Below the pieces are notes generated by a model that was not told where the DNA came from, searched no databases, and saw nothing but the letters and a program-made list of their open reading frames with translations. Below are positions 1 to 40,826 of a DNA stretch of 64,000 nt, in pieces (position 1 is the first letter of the stretch; every line of letters begins with the position of its first letter). The position numbers and the translations under genes were made by a program. The stretch lies in the NCBI GenBank assembly GCA_000474255.1, contig BATO01000018.1, positions 1-64,000 on the forward strand, in the 5' to 3' direction. Source of the DNA: Aquipseudomonas alcaligenes MRY13-0052. Lineage in GTDB: Bacteria > Pseudomonadota > Gammaproteobacteria > Pseudomonadales > Pseudomonadaceae.

Positions 1-447
1 CATGCCGGGGGCTTTTTTCGTTTAGGCTGCTGGACTCTCACCAGGGACTCCGTCCCCGGTTATTCGGGACCCTCGCCCCTCACCCCCTCGAGGCCGCGCT
101 GGAGCGCGTTCGGCTTTGCCGTCGAGTCCAGGTCGCGGAGTCAAATTCAAAAGCCCTCGGCACATGCCGGGGCTTTTTTCGTTTTAGGCCTCTAGACTCT
201 CACCAGGGACTCCGTCCCCGGTTATTCGGGACCTTCGGCCCTCACCTCTCCGGAGCCGCGCTGAAGAGCGTTCGGCTTCGCCGTCAAGTCCGGGTCGCGG
301 AACCAAATTCAAAAGCCCTCGGCACATGCCGGGGGGCTTTTTCGTTTAGACCACTGGACTCTCACCAGGGACTTCGTCCCCGGCTATTCGGGACCTTCGG
401 CCCTCACCCCTTCGGGGCCGCGCTGAAGCGCGTTCGGCTTTGCCCTA
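1..447 (+). repeat. 162-bp tandem repeat with tRNA 3'-tail and terminator
   Basis: Copies of the segment beginning catgccgggg lie at 1, 163 and 325, an exact period of 162 bp. The third copy decays after about 435. Each complete unit ends with a 23-nt stretch (121-143 and 283-305) that reads like the T-loop, 3' T-stem strand, 3' acceptor strand and CCA of a tRNA (gtcgagtcc...cgcggagtca), followed by a U-rich terminator hairpin. The spacer holds several short palindromes. The arrangement resembles the rtT repeats after E. coli tyrT. From remembered tRNA sequences the tail best fits tRNA-Asn. An intact tRNA would be expected just left of the window on the plus strand. Confidence 0.85.
149..179 (+). 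terminator. Rho-independent terminator inside repeat unit
   Basis: AAAAGCCC-T-CGG pairs with CCG-GGGCTTTT around a CACATG loop, followed by a T6 run. The same hairpin recurs at about 311-345, and its right half is at position 1. It sits six bases after the tRNA-like 3' tail, as expected for a terminator duplicated together with a tRNA end. Confidence 0.75.
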
Positions 448-484
448 CGGTTGCGGTAACGAACAAGCAATCAGCAAGGCACAA

Positions 485-510
485 AAAAGCCGGCTATCAA
501 GCCGGCTTTC
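485..510 (-). terminator. Terminator of comEA
   Basis: A perfect 10-bp stem (aaagccggct / agccggcttt, loop atca) lies 20 bp after the comEA stop. Read on the minus strand it is followed by a T6 run, a classic intrinsic terminator. Confidence 0.85.
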
Positions 511-529
511 TTCGTTTCACTCTCAATGC

Positions 530-850
530 TTATTCGACACTGAGCCTGTCACGGTTAGCCTCAAGAGTCTTGGCACCAATCCCCTTGACCTGCAATAAAT
601 CGTCTACTGATGAGAAAGCGCCATTGGCTTCACGATATTCCACTATCGCCTTGGCCTTCTGCTCACCGACTCCGATCATCACCTCCTGCAGTGCCACAGC
701 GTCAGCCTTGTTGATATCGATCTTCTTGCTAACCTGTTCGGCGGCAACCTTTGCCGGCTCGCTCTTGGGTGGTACCTCTGCAGCAATGGCAGAACCGGCG
801 AAGCCGAGAAAAACGAACAACAGGGACAGAATCCGTACGAGGATCATCAC
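530..850 (-). CDS. comEA: ComEA-family helix-hairpin-helix DNA-binding protein
   Basis: A small exported DNA-binding protein of 105-106 aa, related to the ComEA receptor that binds incoming DNA in the periplasm during uptake. A signal peptide (about residues 1-23, ending AIA-A) leads into a Lys/Ala/Glu-rich linker and one double helix-hairpin-helix domain (INKADAVAL; VGEQKAKAIVEYR; VKGIGAKTLE). The start is GTG at 850 or ATG at 847; GGAG lies 6 or 9 bases upstream. It closes the O-antigen locus, as PA3140 does in P. aeruginosa. Its terminator follows directly. Confidence 0.9.
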   Translation of the reverse strand: MMILVRILSLLFVFLGFAGSAIAAEVPPKSEPAKVAAEQVSKKIDINKADAVALQEVMIGVGEQKAKAIVEYREANGAFSSVDDLLQVKGIGAKTLEANRDRLSVE

Positions 851-903
851 TTAAATCTCCATGTGACTAGCTTAAAGGGCGGTACTCCTAGATCCGCCGA
901 GCC

Positions 904-932
904 AAACTAGCCATTAGAGAGAGGCGGTTCAA
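904..932 (-). promoter_or_regulatory. Candidate sigma-70 promoter for comEA
   Basis: On the minus strand TTGAAC (927-932), a 17-base spacer and TAGTTT (904-909) form a plausible -35/-10 pair about 55 bp upstream of the comEA start. No experimental support. The rest of 851-1162 shows no gene or repeat. Confidence 0.4.
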
Positions 933-1162
933 TTCCACGCCATTGATGGATTCAGTCAAAAACCTCCTATTCAAGAGGGTAAATATTGACAGTTTCCTGT
1001 AGGACCTCACGAACCAATCCATAGTCATCGGCTCGAAAGCCCACATATGGGCATGAGATCAGCTCGAAAGCTCACTGCTTGTCTTAGTGAAGATTGAGCG
1101 ACCAAGAGCAAACCATCATGACGAGCATGGCCAGCCGTAACCGGCCGCATTATGTTGATGCA

Positions 1163-1810
1163 CTAACTAAACAGACCAGCACCTCTATCAAGCAACCTTG
1201 AATACAAACCGGATGCCATGCTCCGCAAATCATTGAAAATCGCCTTCATGGTATCAAGAGCCCCATACTTACCATCTAGGTAACCCTCCATATAAACGGC
1301 GAACTCAACAGTTCCACGAAGTCTTATTTCTCGCCCTACATCAACGGTAACCTCCCCGTTGACAATAGGGAGATAGACACTGGAGAAGGTTACACGCCGG
1401 CGCTCTTCTTGCCAGTCGACGCCTCCCCCCCAAGCCTCACAATGAATAAAATGGTTATTATCAGGAACTCTCGCAAAAATCTGCGCATAGTTCATTCCGC
1501 CACTGCCCGCATCGATAGGTATATAGGCCTTCATCTTGACCAATACCAATACATGAGTCGCTGTAGATGGAATTTTAGATGGATCGACTTTATAGACATA
1601 CCTGACTTGGCTGGCGGTCTCCGCCGCAGGCGAATCCGAAAGGACTGGTTCAAGCTCATTGTATTCGATAGGGATGACAGCGCTACCAGTCATAATCATA
1701 GAGTCATGCTTTGCCGGTGCTCCCGAAAACAAAAACAATCGGCCGCTTTTAGACTCACTCAAAGAGTAAAAGCCTAGGAAAAAACACAAGAAAAGCCAAA
1801 AATACTTCAA
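1163..1810 (-). CDS. Hypothetical secreted protein next to wbpM
   Basis: A 215-aa protein that I do not recognise. It opens with a hydrophobic signal-like segment (MKYFWLFLCFFLGFYSLSES) with no lipobox Cys. The remainder is polar and predicted beta-rich, with segments such as HVLVLVKMKAYIPI and TVEFAVYMEGYLDGKYG, and a C-terminal helix-like stretch. It is collinear with wbpM (about 150 bp downstream of its stop) and shares the low GC of the O-antigen region rather than that of comEA. It may be an accessory O-antigen-locus gene or an unrelated transferred gene. No function is assigned. Confidence 0.6.
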   Translation of the reverse strand: MKYFWLFLCFFLGFYSLSESKSGRLFLFSGAPAKHDSMIMTGSAVIPIEYNELEPVLSDSPAAETASQVRYVYKVDPSKIPSTATHVLVLVKMKAYIPIDAGSGGMNYAQIFARVPDNNHFIHCEAWGGGVDWQEERRRVTFSSVYLPIVNGEVTVDVGREIRLRGTVEFAVYMEGYLDGKYGALDTMKAIFNDLRSMASGLYSRLLDRGAGLFS

Positions 1811-1963
1811 TCAGCCCCCTTTCAAACGAATACCAGCCCATCACTGGCTCTGAACGACCATACCCAGAGCAGCAAAAGCCAATCAAGGCATACCAGACCG
1901 TAATCACATGAGACCCAGCAATTAATCTGAGAACCTAACCCTATAGGAAAGACTCAGTATAAA

Positions 1964-3967
1964 TTAGCTAACCGTGCGCTTCGAATGCATCCAGTCAACT
2001 ATTTCACCCTCTGGAGCATAACCAGAAACTGCCTCACGCAATAACTGGCGTACGCGATCATAATCATCCTGCTCGACAGATTCGATCAGATTGACAATAA
2101 CCTCCTTGAAAGCCTCCCAAGGTAGATGTTCTTCATTAGCGCGCATGATCATCGGATGGTCAGTAGGACTTACGTTGTCACCGATCAAGAGCTCTTCATA
2201 AAGCTTCTCACCAGGCCGTAAGCCTGTGAATTCGATTGAGATGTCCCCGTGGGGATTAGCCTCGGAGCAGACACTTAGCCCTGTTAGATGAATCATCTTC
2301 TCGGCCAATTCGGCAATCTTCACAGGCTGCCCCATATCCAGAACGAATACATCACCACCCTGGCCCATTGAGCCAGCCTGGATCACCAGTTGTGCGGCCT
2401 CGGGAATAGTCATGAAGTAGCGAGTTATATTCGGATGAGTGACTGTCACGGGTCCGCCCTTACGAATCTGATCGTAAAAGCGTGGAATGACAGAGCCCGA
2501 AGAGCCCAGCACATTGCCAAAGCGCACCATGGTGAATCGTGTCTTGTTTTCTTGGTGCAGTTGCTCTTCATCACCGAACAATACCGGCGCAACTTCTTGA
2601 CTCAATGCCTGCAAAACCATTTCAGCTAAACGCTTTGTGCTACCCATGACATTTGTAGGGCGCACTGCCTTGTCAGTGGAAATCAGAACGAAGTGCTCAA
2701 CACCGGCGCGCAACGCTGCCTGAGCCGTATACAACGACCCCAGCACATTATTCATGACTCCTTCGGCGATATTGTGCTCCACCATCGGCACATGTTTATA
2801 AGCTGCCGCATGGTAAACGGTGTTGACCGCCCACACTCGCATCAACTCATACAGACGCTCCTGATTACGGACTGAACCAAGAACAGGGAACAACCGCACG
2901 CTGAGAGACTCCCTGCGTATACGTTGCTCCAACTCCGTATGAATGCTGTATAGATTAAATTCACTGTGCTCGAACAACAGCAATATCTTTGCATCGGTAG
3001 AAAGAATCTGCCGGCACAACTCCGAGCCGATGGAGCCACCCGCCCCTGTCACCATGACCACTTGGCCTCGAATGCAACGCTCGAACAATTCTTGCTGTGG
3101 CGGCACCGCGTCGCGCCCGAGAAGATCGGCGATGTCCACTTCCTGGACATCCTCTACCTTTACACGACCACTCGCCAAGTCCATGAAGCCCGGTACGGTT
3201 CGAACATGCAGCGGATATTGCTCCAATGTTTCCAGTACTTGCCGTCTGCGTGTACGACTTGCAGATGGCACAGCCAAAAGAATTTCTACCGCACCCGTTT
3301 CGTCGATCATCTGCTGAATGTGACCAGGCGAGTACACGCGCAGGCCTGCTATTACACGATTACAGATATTCTGATCATCATCGATGAACGCAACAGGCCG
3401 CATGGCACGCCCCATGCGGAGGGCTGCAGCCAATTGATTTCCGGCAGCTCCAGCTCCATAGATCGCAACTCGAGAAAGTCGGCTATCGAACCCACCGAAT
3501 CTGGACGGCTGTTCAGGCGAGAACCAGTTGCCCACGAAATAGTGGCGCATGCATAGCCGCAAACCACCGATCAACATGATGCTCAACCACCAATAATTCA
3601 GCACCATGGATCGAGGAATCATTGCGGGAGCATCTCGATACCAGTACACCGCCAATGCCAAGACCAAGGCAGACAAGCTCACAGCCTTAACAATCGCGAC
3701 AAGTGCGTCATTCCCCAGATAGCGTGTGACGACTCGGTACATACCAAAACGAATGAACAACGGTATGGACACCAATGGTGCAGCCAAGAACAACCATAAG
3801 TGCCCACTGAATGGAAAGATATTGTCCATGTCCCCGAGGCGTATTACGAATGCCAACCACAAGGCGACCCACAGCAACACAACGTCCATGAAGATCTGGA
3901 TTGATCGCTTGTAACGACGCGGCAAGCGCAGCATGCGTTCTCTGAGTTTGTCAGCTAGTCTCAACAC
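1964..3967 (-). CDS. wbpM: WbpM-type UDP-GlcNAc 4,6-dehydratase
   Basis: Membrane-bound nucleotide-sugar dehydratase that converts UDP-GlcNAc to the UDP-4-keto-6-deoxy sugar, the entry step for many Pseudomonas O-antigen sugars. The N-terminal third has several membrane helices (RSIQIFMDVVLLW...; LWLFLAAPLV). Two nucleotide-binding folds follow: AIYGAGAAGNQL, then the catalytic extended-SDR domain with VTGAGGSIGSELCRQ and STDKAVRPTNVMGSTKR. The C-terminal GLRPGEKLYEELL is family-typical. The frame stays open to an ATG at 4048, but that ATG lacks a ribosome site. The family's N terminus (LPRRYKR) suggests starting at GTG 3967 or TTG 3964. It is last in the sugar-biosynthesis run, as in other Pseudomonas O-antigen loci. 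Confidence 0.93.
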   Translation of the reverse strand: MLRLADKLRERMLRLPRRYKRSIQIFMDVVLLWVALWLAFVIRLGDMDNIFPFSGHLWLFLAAPLVSIPLFIRFGMYRVVTRYLGNDALVAIVKAVSLSALVLALAVYWYRDAPAMIPRSMVLNYWWLSIMLIGGLRLCMRHYFVGNWFSPEQPSRFGGFDSRLSRVAIYGAGAAGNQLAAALRMGRAMRPVAFIDDDQNICNRVIAGLRVYSPGHIQQMIDETGAVEILLAVPSASRTRRRQVLETLEQYPLHVRTVPGFMDLASGRVKVEDVQEVDIADLLGRDAVPPQQELFERCIRGQVVMVTGAGGSIGSELCRQILSTDAKILLLFEHSEFNLYSIHTELEQRIRRESLSVRLFPVLGSVRNQERLYELMRVWAVNTVYHAAAYKHVPMVEHNIAEGVMNNVLGSLYTAQAALRAGVEHFVLISTDKAVRPTNVMGSTKRLAEMVLQALSQEVAPVLFGDEEQLHQENKTRFTMVRFGNVLGSSGSVIPRFYDQIRKGGPVTVTHPNITRYFMTIPEAAQLVIQAGSMGQGGDVFVLDMGQPVKIAELAEKMIHLTGLSVCSEANPHGDISIEFTGLRPGEKLYEELLIGDNVSPTDHPMIMRANEEHLPWEAFKEVIVNLIESVEQDDYDRVRQLLREAVSGYAPEGEIVDWMHSKRTVS

Positions 3968-4048
3968 AACAACGGCACCATATCCTTCAAAAAGCCTGGT
4001 TCTGCGTTGGCAGCCCCAAGCAAAGTCCTGCAACTGAAGCGATCTCAT

Positions 4049-4359
4049 CGACCACTACGCACACGTTTCCATACCATCGTGCCGTCCGCAACCGACAACG
4101 AATGAACTGTCCACTCTCGTAAAGTGCCAGGTCGCGCCAGACACTCGCACTTTCGTGCATGACGCAACCTGTGGCTTGATGGCTAAGGATACTCCGCTCC
4201 CAAACGCATCATTTGATCTCGAGGTCTTGCCGCATAACGGCCTGAGGCGGGTGGACGCGGGCAGCTAAACATGACACGCCACCAAGCAGCCACCCTCCAC
4301 TTCCCACAGGCAGAAGCAATATCTCTCAGAGAGGAACACAGTCCTCTCCCCTCATCCCA
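4049..4359. other. Intergenic gap upstream of wbpM
   Basis: About 310 bp between the aminotransferase stop and the annotated region of wbpM. I see no ORF with a family signature, no strong terminator and no repeat. wbpM may have its own promoter here, but no convincing -35/-10 pair stood out. Confidence 0.5.
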
Positions 4360-5838
4360 TCAAAACTCCGCAAAAATCTTCTTAGCGGTATCTATCACAC
4401 GATCCTGCTCCCGCTCTGTCATATTGGACCCGGAGGGCAGGCAGATGCCATGAGCGAAAATATGATCGCTGACGGAATAATCCTCATCATGAGGAAAATA
4501 AGCACACCCTTCGAAAAGCGGCTGCAGGTGTAGCGGCTTCCATATCCTTCGTGCCTCAATACGATGCTCCGCCAGTCGCTCGATAAAGCGCTGAACATCA
4601 ACACGGCCTTCAGAGTCAAAAACGCCGCAACTAAGCCATCTTGTCGAGCGGCCAAAGGAGGCCTCAGGCATCCACTGAAAGCTCTCTCCACCGATGCCAC
4701 TGTCGCGATATCGTTCGAACACCGCACGTCGCTGGCCAACTCGCTCCTCCAGAACGCGCAACTGCCCACGACCGATACCAGCCAGGACATTACTCATACG
4801 GTAATTGAAACCGGCACTCGTGTGCTGATACCACGGTGCTGGATCTCTAGCTTGCGTCGCAAAGAAGCGGGCTCTCTCAATCAAGGCTCGATCATCCGAC
4901 ACTAACATCCCCCCTCCGGAGGTAGTGATGATCTTGTTGCCATTGAACGAATAGATACCGAGCTTACCGAAAGTACCACTGGCTCTGCCTTTGTAACTAG
5001 CACCTAGAGACTCAGCAGCATCCTCGATCAGCGGGACATTGAACTTGTCACAAATCGCGACGATAGGATCGAAATCCGAGCTCTGCCCATACAGATTGAC
5101 GACAATCACAGCCTTTGGAAGACGTCCATCCCGAGCAGCCTGCTCAAGGCCACGCTGCAATGCTGCAGGTGACATATTCCAGGTTTCAGGCTCGGAGTCG
5201 ATGAATACCGGGACAGCCTTCTGATAGAGAATAGGATTGGCACTGGCGACAAACGTCAGACTGGAACAGAACACACTATCCCCTTCATTAACCCCCAGAA
5301 GGATGAGTGCGAGGTGAATAGCGGCGGTGCCCGAACTCAACGCCGCCGCATGGCCAACGCCAACTTTCTCCGCCAGCTCTCGTTCGAAAGCATCGACGTT
5401 GGGGCCAAGAGGAGCAATCCAGTTAGTATCGAAAGCCTGGTTGATGAAGGAGAGTTCCTGATCCCCCATATGCGGCGTCGACAAAAGAATAGGCGACTCA
5501 AGGTCTCGAGCACGCAGCAGCTCTATTGGACGCCCGAAGTCATCAAGCACGGGGATATGATTGACATCATTTTGCTTCATCAGATCGAGAGCCAGCTCTC
5601 GGTCCGTTCCATCTTGCACCGTAATCGGCGTCTTCTCTGGAAGCTCGAACTGCACCTCCTCCAATGCGGTACCAGCCAGTAACAAGCGGCGAAGATCACC
5701 ATCGGTAATGGTCCGAACCAAGCGGCCACTTCCATCTACCAATAGCAGAATTTCTGCACCGCCCTGATCCATGCGAGCAAGCAGCTCCCTCAAAGAAAGC
5801 CCTTGGTGAATAATGACGCGCTGTAACTCAATCATCAC
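4360..5838 (-). CDS. CBS-domain / DegT-family sugar aminotransferase fusion
   Basis: A 492-aa two-part protein. Residues ~1-120 look like a CBS pair (TITDGDLRRLLLAG, then NDVNHIPVLDDFGRPIELL). Residues ~120-492 are a PLP-dependent DegT/DnrJ/EryC1 aminotransferase with SSGTAAIHLAL, DAAESLGA and the PLP lysine in SFNGNKIITTSGGG, closest in kind to PglE/LegC enzymes. Those aminate UDP-4-keto-6-deoxy-GlcNAc to UDP-4-amino-4,6-dideoxy-GlcNAc, the product expected after WbpM. In Campylobacter a similar CBS pair is carried by the nucleotidyltransferase PtmE. No nucleotidyltransferase domain is seen here, so the CBS part may sense a nucleotide. It lies 3' of the acetyltransferase gene with a few bases of overlap. 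Confidence 0.88.
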   Translation of the reverse strand: MMIELQRVIIHQGLSLRELLARMDQGGAEILLLVDGSGRLVRTITDGDLRRLLLAGTALEEVQFELPEKTPITVQDGTDRELALDLMKQNDVNHIPVLDDFGRPIELLRARDLESPILLSTPHMGDQELSFINQAFDTNWIAPLGPNVDAFERELAEKVGVGHAAALSSGTAAIHLALILLGVNEGDSVFCSSLTFVASANPILYQKAVPVFIDSEPETWNMSPAALQRGLEQAARDGRLPKAVIVVNLYGQSSDFDPIVAICDKFNVPLIEDAAESLGASYKGRASGTFGKLGIYSFNGNKIITTSGGGMLVSDDRALIERARFFATQARDPAPWYQHTSAGFNYRMSNVLAGIGRGQLRVLEERVGQRRAVFERYRDSGIGGESFQWMPEASFGRSTRWLSCGVFDSEGRVDVQRFIERLAEHRIEARRIWKPLHLQPLFEGCAYFPHDEDYSVSDHIFAHGICLPSGSNMTEREQDRVIDTAKKIFAEF

Positions 5839-33330: not shown

Positions 33331-33548
33331 GAGAAGCCTGATTCCTTTTTCTAGTGAAACCCCGACACATCCTTCCTGGATGACGCGAGGCTCGTCGCCT
33401 GGCTGCGCCAGCACGACTCACGACAAATCAACGAGTTAAGCCACGGATCCGCACAGAATGCCGACCTTGCAAAGGGAGGCTCGATAACTGGCGGAGCTTA
33501 CCACAGTCACTGCCCTGCACCCAGCCCCGCCGGGCGCAGGCCCACGCC

Positions 33549-39554: not shown

Positions 39555-40826
39555 TCAGCGCTTGCGGCCGAAACCGGGGCGCTGGCCCTCGCCTGCCGGC
39601 CCATTGGTGCGCTTGCTTACCGGGCGCGCCGGCTTGCGCTGCGGGCGTTCAGCCACTTCGCTGGCATCGCCCTGGGGCTTGCCACGGGGCTTCTTGGCCA
39701 CATCACGCGGGCGCTCCGCCAGCGGCGTGCCACGGTTCTGCTCGCCACGGGCTGCCGGGCGCGGAGCGCGGGCGGGACGTTCGGCACCTTCGCCACGGGG
39801 GCTGCGTGCCGGGCGGTCAGAACCCTCGCCACGAGGAGCACGGGCCGGACGATCCGAACCTTCGCCACGCGGTGCACGGCTCGGGCGCTCAGCACCTTCG
39901 CCACGACCACGGGCAGGACGCTCGCCACCTTCGCTGCGCGGGCCACGGGCCGGGCGCTCATCGCCCTGGCGGCGGCCACGGCCGCTCACCGGCTTGACCA
40001 GCTTGCGCTGCATGCGCTCGACCTTGTCCTTGTGCTTGCTGGAAACCTCCGGCAGCTGGATAGGCTTGAGGCCCACTTCGCCACTGAGGATGTCCACTTC
40101 GGACTGGCCCATCTCGCGCCAGCGCCCCATGGTCAGCTCGGAGGTGAGGAACACCGGGCCGAAACGCACGCGCTTCAGGCGGCTGACCACCAAGCCCTGG
40201 GATTCCCACAGGCGACGTACTTCGCGGTTGCGGCCTTCCATCACCACGCAGTGGTACCAATGGTTGAAACCTTCGCCGCCGGGCGCTTCCTGGATGTCGG
40301 TGAACTTGGCGGGGCCGTCTTCCAGCATCACGCCGTTCTTCAGGTTCTCCAGGATCTCCTCGGTGACTTCGCCCCGCACGCGCACGGCGTACTCGCGGTC
40401 CATCTCGTAGGAGGGGTGCATCAGGCGGTTGGCCAGCTCACCGTCGGTGGTGAACAGCAGCAGGCCGGTGGTGTTAATGTCCAGACGACCGATGTTGATC
40501 CAGCGGCCAGCGCGCAGACGCGGCAGGCGCTCGAATACGGTGGGGCGGCCTTCCGGGTCGTCGCGGGTGCAGACTTCGCCGTCGGGCTTGTTGTAGATCA
40601 GCACGCGGCGGACGGCTTCGGTCTCTTCCTCGCGCTTGAGCAGGCGGCCGTCGACGCTGATGGCGTCGTGACGGTCGACGCGCTGGCCGAGGGTCGCGGC
40701 CACGCCGTTGACCTTGACGCGGCCTTCGGTGATCCAGGCCTCGATGTCGCGGCGCGAAGCCAGGCCAATGCGAGCCAGGACCTTCTGCAGCTTTTCCCCA
40801 GCGGGGCTGTATTCGTCTTCGTTCAT
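39555..40826 (-). CDS. rluB: 23S rRNA pseudouridine synthase B with Arg-rich tail
   Basis: RluB makes pseudouridine 2605 in 23S rRNA. It has an S4 domain ([20 protein letters not shown]), the catalytic Asp in [16 protein letters not shown], and RxxEREY-type [11 protein letters not shown]. Start ATG 40826 has GGGAGG 7 bases upstream. Of 423 aa, the last ~150 form a basic low-complexity tail with near-repeats of [12 protein letters not shown], which must be disordered and may add RNA binding. The tail varies widely among pseudomonads. Confidence 0.94.

Follow-up and report, generated by a model that had tools for sequence, protein, structure and literature searches.

A tRNA-Asn-anchored tandem array in Aquipseudomonas alcaligenes, together with rtT and scattered bacterial repeats, suggests a single family of small hairpin elements that are probably mobile

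The DNA analysed here (the window) is the 64,000-nucleotide stretch at the start of one contig (C220) in the 237-contig assembly of Aquipseudomonas alcaligenes MRY13-0052; its first base is the first base of that contig, and the part to the left is missing. It opens with a tandem array, which TRF places at 1-444 with a period of 162, 2.7 copies and a score of 711, and for which a repeat finder sets the beginnings of the copies at 1, 163 and 325, with identities to the first copy of 100, 86 and 77%. The array holds three units, two of which contain a tRNA 3' tail; the third has no tail, and its similarity to the other units stops at 444. Beyond it, on the minus strand at 530-5838, lie a helix-hairpin-helix (ComEA-type) gene, a polysaccharide biosynthesis gene (Polysacc_synt_2), which we take to be WbpM-like, and a gene for a DegT-type aminotransferase, making the adjoining locus O-antigen-like. 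Farther along the window, the Rfam gyrA RNA (RF01740) matches the minus strand at 33342-33423 with 54.7 bits, above its cut-off, and a degenerate 36/72-bp tandem repeat at 39760-39981 overlaps a minus-strand ORF of 431 aa, the C-terminal part of which is rich in RPAR/GEG-type repeats.

The original prediction read the array as tRNA 3' tails with terminators, most likely derived from tRNA-Asn, and proposed a search upstream for a tRNA with a matching 3' end. A tRNA search across the window found none. Outside the window, at the extreme end of another contig of the same assembly (C217:80267-80342), there is an intact tRNA-Asn(GUU) which terminates in TCGAGTCCAGGTCGCGGAGCCA, matching the window tails, and which is followed directly 3' by the same terminator; the second tRNA-Asn gene of the assembly (C211) belongs to an Asn-Pro-Lys group and has no array behind it. 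Further, in a genome of the same species assembled as one contig (G691), tRNA-Asn, its terminator and units 1, 2 and 3 follow one another in that order, with three modules (see below) and two tails as in the window. The sequence downstream of that array matches the window flank, including the ComEA-type gene, and alignment places 18 nt between the CCA of the tRNA and window base 1. The predicted tRNA-Asn source is thereby supported. The predicted exact 162-bp period holds for the window copies only, the spacing in G691 being 160. The two strains share 94.1% identity in the array as against 99.9% and 98.7% in the flanks, a difference of which draft-assembly error at the contig end could explain a part. 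Hairpins like terminators stand 3' of both tails (155-172 and 316-335), as predicted; a terminator scan of window 1-900 gave three terminator-like hairpins against 1.2 expected in shuffles (sd 1.1), a count that by itself proves little.

On the plus strand, each unit runs from a terminator through an antisense T-arm, CTGGACTCTCACCAGGGAC, a 3-nt loop and a sense copy, GTCCCnGGTT, into about 60 bp of hairpins, and continues with CGAGTCCAGGTCGCGGAGCCA, i.e., the tRNA from the T-loop to the CCA, and a copy of the tRNA terminator (Table 1). As the hairpins stand between the sense copy of the T-arm and the tail that begins in the T-loop, they occupy the T-loop of what is a palindromised copy of the tRNA. 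A full unit is thus the 3' part of the neighbouring tRNA in palindromised form, with a four-hairpin module of about 60-90 bp in its T-loop, together with the tRNA's own terminator. Hairpin 2 of the unit 2 module carries a paired change, from CCC/GGG to CTC/GAG.

Table 1. Features of the array at the left end of the window (R1 and R2 are covariance models of the module, described in the text)
Feature	Position	Strand	Remarks
Terminator of tRNA-Asn, right part	1-22	+	window begins within it
Unit 1, palindromised T-arm	30-61	+	reading against tRNA-Asn
Unit 1, antisense arm CTGGACTCTCACCAGGGAC	30-48	+	followed by 3-nt loop
Unit 1, sense arm GTCCCCGGTT	52-61	+	reading against tRNA-Asn
Unit 1, four-hairpin module, at T-loop	62-122	+	R1 60-123, 43.3 bits, E 1.8e-9; R2 31.9 bits, E 1e-6
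Unit 1, tRNA-Asn 3' tail, T-loop to CCA position	122-143	+	1 mismatch in 22; TCA in place of CCA
Unit 1, terminator-like hairpin, copied from the tRNA's own	155-180	+	
Unit 2, palindromised T-arm	192-223	+	
Unit 2, four-hairpin module	224-284	+	R1 222-285, 34.7 bits, E 2.9e-7
Unit 2, tRNA-Asn 3' tail	284-305	+	3 mismatches in 22
Unit 2, terminator-like hairpin	316-342	+	
Unit 3, palindromised T-arm	354-385	+	
Unit 3, module with no tail after it	386-444	+	R1 384-452, 43.7 bits, E 1.4e-9

This structural blueprint recalls the rtT repeats behind tyrT, which have been a curiosity for decades. The Escherichia coli rtT locus likewise consists of three repeats, each built of an antisense tail, a CCA loop, AGGTTCGA, hairpins and ATCCTTCCCCCACCACCA. 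To compare the spacers, two covariance models of the module were used: R1, from nine modules (alignment A4) with no Asn and no rtT member, and R2, from eleven modules of Ser/Arg type only (alignment A3); a mixed MAFFT alignment of 38 rows (A1) and one of 15 rows (A2) misplaced hairpins 3 and 4, and the cleaner A4 and A3 were used instead. On the window, both models rank the three units at the top (R1 34.7-43.7 bits, next 13.3; R2 29.8-37.7 bits, next 8.3), and on the rtT locus both rank the three rtT repeats at the top (R1 29.4-32.6 bits, next 7.3; R2 28.5-30.2 bits, next 6.7). Most of the underlying loci had been retrieved by a search pattern derived from the window spacer, and the 5' third that they share (ATTCGG..CTCACCCCTTCGGGG) is partly so by construction; the matches on the window are hence not fully independent, whereas those on rtT, which does not contain the pattern, are free of this flaw. 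Over the window's own 6.9-Mb assembly, R1 finds the three window units only (next 14 bits, E 7.6), i.e., one locus and none of the dispersed copies that MITE-like elements show.

These results bear on the alternative that a tRNA 3' end was simply duplicated in tandem together with a GC-rich hairpin spacer of unrelated origin, so that the array and rtT resemble each other by convergence. While the spacer hairpins are indeed short and GC-rich, and the rapid divergence of the array between the two strains is what such a spacer might show, models built without Asn or rtT sequences give their highest scores to precisely these window units and rtT repeats, and the Rfam RtT model (RF00391), made by others and independent of our search pattern, matches the same Ser, Arg and Gln arrays, once above its cut-off. 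We therefore regard convergence as highly improbable.

The RF00391 matches further reveal how the Asn arrays differ from the rest. The model (cut-off 45 bits) matches tRNA-Ser arrays with 43.7 (L065) and 52.6 bits (L157), tRNA-Arg arrays with 35.3 (L067) and 38.4 bits (L068), and two arrays with tRNA-Gln-type tails with 34.3-37.8 (L211, four units) and 38.5-44.0 bits (L212, three units). Across 114 genomes of the class it is found at E<=0.001 in 18 and above the cut-off in 5, G000 having none. The window is unmatched at the gathering threshold, as are the first 2 kb of the window contig (L001) and L010 at E<=0.1, and the Asn arrays L013, L015 and L240 at E<=0.05. The likely reason is the reversed orientation of the module with respect to the tRNA there: R1 matches on the tRNA strand at tRNA-Asn but on the opposite strand at tyrV. 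The window and the rtT/RttR RNA behind tyrV (RF00391) have in common three units in tandem that carry a tRNA 3' tail, a palindromised T-arm and a four-hairpin module in the T-loop; they differ in the tRNA (Asn, with a unit of 160-162 bp, as opposed to Tyr, with 178 bp), in the terminator-like hairpin after each window tail, in the orientation of the module and in the RF00391 match. The RtT-like arrays L065, L157, L211 and L212 resemble the window in the T-loop insertion and the tail copies, with tandem units 169-186 bp apart in L211 and L212, but carry the module antisense to the tRNA and match RF00391, mostly under its cut-off. The Rfam family AaHKsRNA22 (RF02902, Aggregatibacter sRNA 22; cut-off 39.8) also overlaps modules, with 45.0 bits at L211, 36.1 at L214, 32.8 at L201 and 31.7 at L115, and could represent a fragment of this element.

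The window displays two features of the RtT family, tandem repeats that include the 3' end of the tRNA next to them on the upstream side and the same internal hairpin module, and the rtT-like character that had been proposed for it stands, with the amendment that its module is inverted relative to that of E. coli and escapes RF00391. An rtT-type array on a non-Tyr tRNA is in itself nothing new: RtT beyond tyrT is already known, since in Actinobacillus RNAs of the RtT family have been placed upstream of tRNA-Asn and tRNA-Lys genes (PMC4986893), and RF00391 itself matches arrays at tRNA-Ser, -Arg and -Gln. The rtT RNA also serves as a covariation example (PMC8250186), and a likeness of rtT to the BIMEs before gatY, rbfA and cvpA has been described (PMC2965389). 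A link to BIMEs through the module was tried and rejected, as R1 detects none in the three 12-kb E. coli stretches around gatY, rbfA and cvpA (a single match at E<=1, with 9.1 bits and E 0.73); the BIME likeness probably concerns another part of rtT.

In the genus sample, R1 (E<=0.01) matches 8 of 18 genomes, seven at the tRNA-Asn locus and one (G006) weakly elsewhere (27.8 bits, E 0.0017). The relatives examined have between zero and three further tails each, several retaining decayed remains only, and in the units of ten array-bearing relatives 12 of 17 tails are identical to the last 22 nt of the tRNA-Asn. The terminator of the tRNA is more similar to those of units in the same genome (likeness 0.88, n 19) than to those of units in other genomes (0.71, n 186), which points to concerted evolution or recent duplication. 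Inspection by eye also noted transposase-like sequence 3' of the tRNA-Asn terminator in two relatives (L026, L030), in one of which (L030) it sits within the array remnant.

The module itself has a recognizable grammar of constant linkers and variable stems: ATTC, hairpin 1, TCA, hairpin 2, hairpin 3, TT(C), hairpin 4 and GT(C), with hairpin 2 fixed by the search pattern. Among the matches listed, 94 of 126 distinct modules with clean flanks fit this grammar, most of the 126 being absent from the training alignments of R1 and R2; those that fit yielded 89 distinct parsed modules, and the 32 outside the grammar were left out of the flank counts. The two bases immediately before ATTC, again among the matches listed, are TT in 75 modules and TG in 44, out of 123. 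Within the order, the spacer pattern was found in 10 of 390 genomes, by tRNA-Ser, tRNA-Arg, tmRNA and tRNA-Asn, and a looser version across genome contigs reached at least 117 loci. Of 274 genomes sampled across the class, 110 have an R1 match at E<=0.01, as do 95 of 222 genera; some genomes, such as G541 and G665, have many scattered matches of equal score, at sites mostly unread.

The setting of these modules was tested with 141 distinct ones, namely the 89 parsed, which derive from the pattern matches listed, and 52 R1 matches. A tRNA or tmRNA lies within 900 bp of 67; the other 74 include many dispersed enterobacterial copies and some at contig ends. In 46 of the 67, the flank matches the nearby tRNA with a score of at least 28 (at least 14 matching bases), whereas 0.42 would be expected if the same number of tRNAs of other types were drawn, and the best of all such tRNAs reaches 28 in 4 of 67; 21 near-tRNA modules lack a strong tRNA flank. 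The junction in these 46 falls in the T-loop in 38, in the D-arm of tRNA-Ser copies in 6 and elsewhere in 2. Of the T-loop junctions 34 lie behind the tRNA gene and 4 before it, and the six D-arm copies lie before a tRNA-Ser gene. The hosts found include the T-loops of tRNA-Ser, -Arg, -Gln, -Glu, -Pro and -Val copies and the D-arms of tRNA-Ser copies, and modules also occur beside tmRNA and inside enterobacterial ERIC repeats. The tmRNA-adjacent modules (L070, L085, L203, L214) include two tandem copies with a tmRNA 3' tail, seen by eye in L070 and L085, apparently one organism.

The T-loop is also the place used by tyrosine integrases, and the junction there, along with the repetition of tail and terminator, would suit a reading in which the tails from T-loop to CCA are att sites that a series of integrase-mediated insertions left behind in tRNA-Asn. 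Such sites would not be expected to have a conserved module as the spacer or antisense arms, nor to go with insertions in ERICs, and a phage collection gave no match. Two plasmid records did match; the one viewed has a chromosome-like neighbourhood of the tRNA-Asn type, with aminotransferase, ComEA-type and epimerase genes. Remnants of integrative elements were on these grounds rejected as the origin of the array, and we consider them a very unlikely one.

ERICs can carry internal insertions of about 70 bp, and the insertions in the ERIC (RU-1/IRU) repeats of Enterobacterales contain the same four-hairpin module as the window array, the host being a dispersed MITE-like repeat in place of a tRNA copy. 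R2, trained on tRNA-type modules, matches all 33 loci judged to be of ERIC type by their flanks, plus extra modules in some; since the loci were chosen by a shared search pattern, this is weaker support than the rtT result. In four loci (L103, L118, L119, L194), three R1 modules lie within about 300-500 bases, as if there were several per ERIC. Outside its module, L115 looks to the eye like the Salmonella ERIC printed in PMC2759123, the module standing at GCCGC/CTGCAAC. Comparison by eye of filled with published ERICs and of T-loops with intact tRNAs fits insertion at TT/C. A parallel, drawn by description, is the small palindromic element YPAL/RU-2 of Yersinia, which is about 168 bp long and whose targets span or adjoin dyad symmetry (PMC2229807).

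The remaining question is what keeps the stems paired. Changes on both sides are seen in 10 of 23 pairs in A3 and in 13 of 23 in A4, with covariation scores of 0.338 (0.118 shuffled) and 0.472 (0.140 shuffled) that 0 of 500 shuffles reach, and in 78 distinct versions of hairpin 1 among the matches listed the three outer positions pair in 92% as against 63% when shuffled. Covariation alone also fits a selected RNA. A structured RNA would be expected to tolerate G-U on the transcribed strand but not A-C. In 412 stem pairs of hairpins 1 and 3, there are 6 G-T, 7 A-C and 23 other mispairs, while 708 pairs of 59 tRNAs from the same loci hold 14 G-T, 1 A-C and 5 other mispairs. The difference in G-T against A-C (Fisher p 0.011) makes a weak test, on few events and with positions partly fixed by the pattern or anchor; it arises from the extra A-C and other mispairs in the modules, the G-T rate being similar in the two (1.5% and 2.0%). 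The lack of G-T excess over A-C, together with the flipped module at tRNA-Asn, leans, on these few events, toward a DNA-level process, for which hairpin copying by template switching or a protein reading hairpin DNA are candidates.

Against this stands the proposal of a functional small RNA, whereby read-through of tRNA-Asn would release structured RNAs, as reported for the rtT RNA after tyrT, acting in trans or on tRNA maturation, with the antisense arm pairing with the tRNA tail. The four covarying hairpins and the complementarity of the antisense arm to the tRNA T-arm are in keeping with it, as are the reported liberation of RtT from a tRNA transcript and its implication in amino-acid limitation (PMC4986893) and its upregulation in a low-temperature study of Thioalkalivibrio (PMC8092127). 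However, terminator-like hairpins stand between the tRNA and unit 1 and behind each tail and should stop most transcription, so that little RNA is expected from the array. A scan of window 1-900 found no promoter-like site, a weak observation given that 0.2 is expected by chance, and the single such site in G691 lies in front of the tRNA. Additionally, the opposite sense of the module in the Asn and Tyr arrays, the want of a G-T excess, on few events, and the presence of the module at tRNA-Asn in only seven of the 18 genus genomes all speak against this proposal. A small RNA is thus an unlikely explanation, though one of some weight.

The array is instead probably a tRNA-Asn-anchored relative of rtT, in which a DNA module in the T-loop of a tRNA copy has been multiplied and its stem pairing maintained at the DNA level. 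Under this reading, a four-hairpin DNA element would have entered a partial, palindromised copy of tRNA-Asn behind the intact gene, at the T-loop of that copy, and the unit of tail, terminator, palindrome and module would then have been multiplied in tandem. Recombination or copy correction could keep the units similar to the 3' end of the tRNA gene itself, and the stems, while turning over fast, would stay paired through correction or through selection on the DNA hairpin and not on one RNA strand. The module would be mobile, as its distribution suggests, with TTC in a dyad as the probable target; no transposition was seen, and no transposase was identified for the module. The array would then need no RNA product, and might at most provide spare terminators and tRNA-like sequence for recombination.

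Taken together, the window array, rtT and the scattered bacterial repeats suggest the products of one small, probably mobile family of hairpin elements. In its broadest form this would make a single mobile DNA family, with four hypervariable hairpins and constant linkers and a preference for TTC in dyad-symmetric DNA, the common source of rtT, of the tail arrays of tRNAs and tmRNA in Gammaproteobacteria and of the extra segments in ERICs, its stems kept paired by DNA-level hairpin copying and not by RNA function; this is quite possible, but we put it forward tentatively. A literature search, with key older papers outside its scope, found no paper in which rtT, insertion at tRNA T-loops and the ERIC insertions are brought together. 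The T-loop blueprint common to rtT and the array, the flipped module and the likeness to the modules in other tRNA copies and in ERICs were not found in print. Because the module at tRNA-Asn is flipped, its strand sense is no conserved feature, and whether this is an RNA or a DNA element becomes directly testable. If the rtT spacer is truly the module found in tRNA T-loops and ERICs, rtT would be no special device of tRNA-Tyr but a visible instance of a hairpin element that is widespread.
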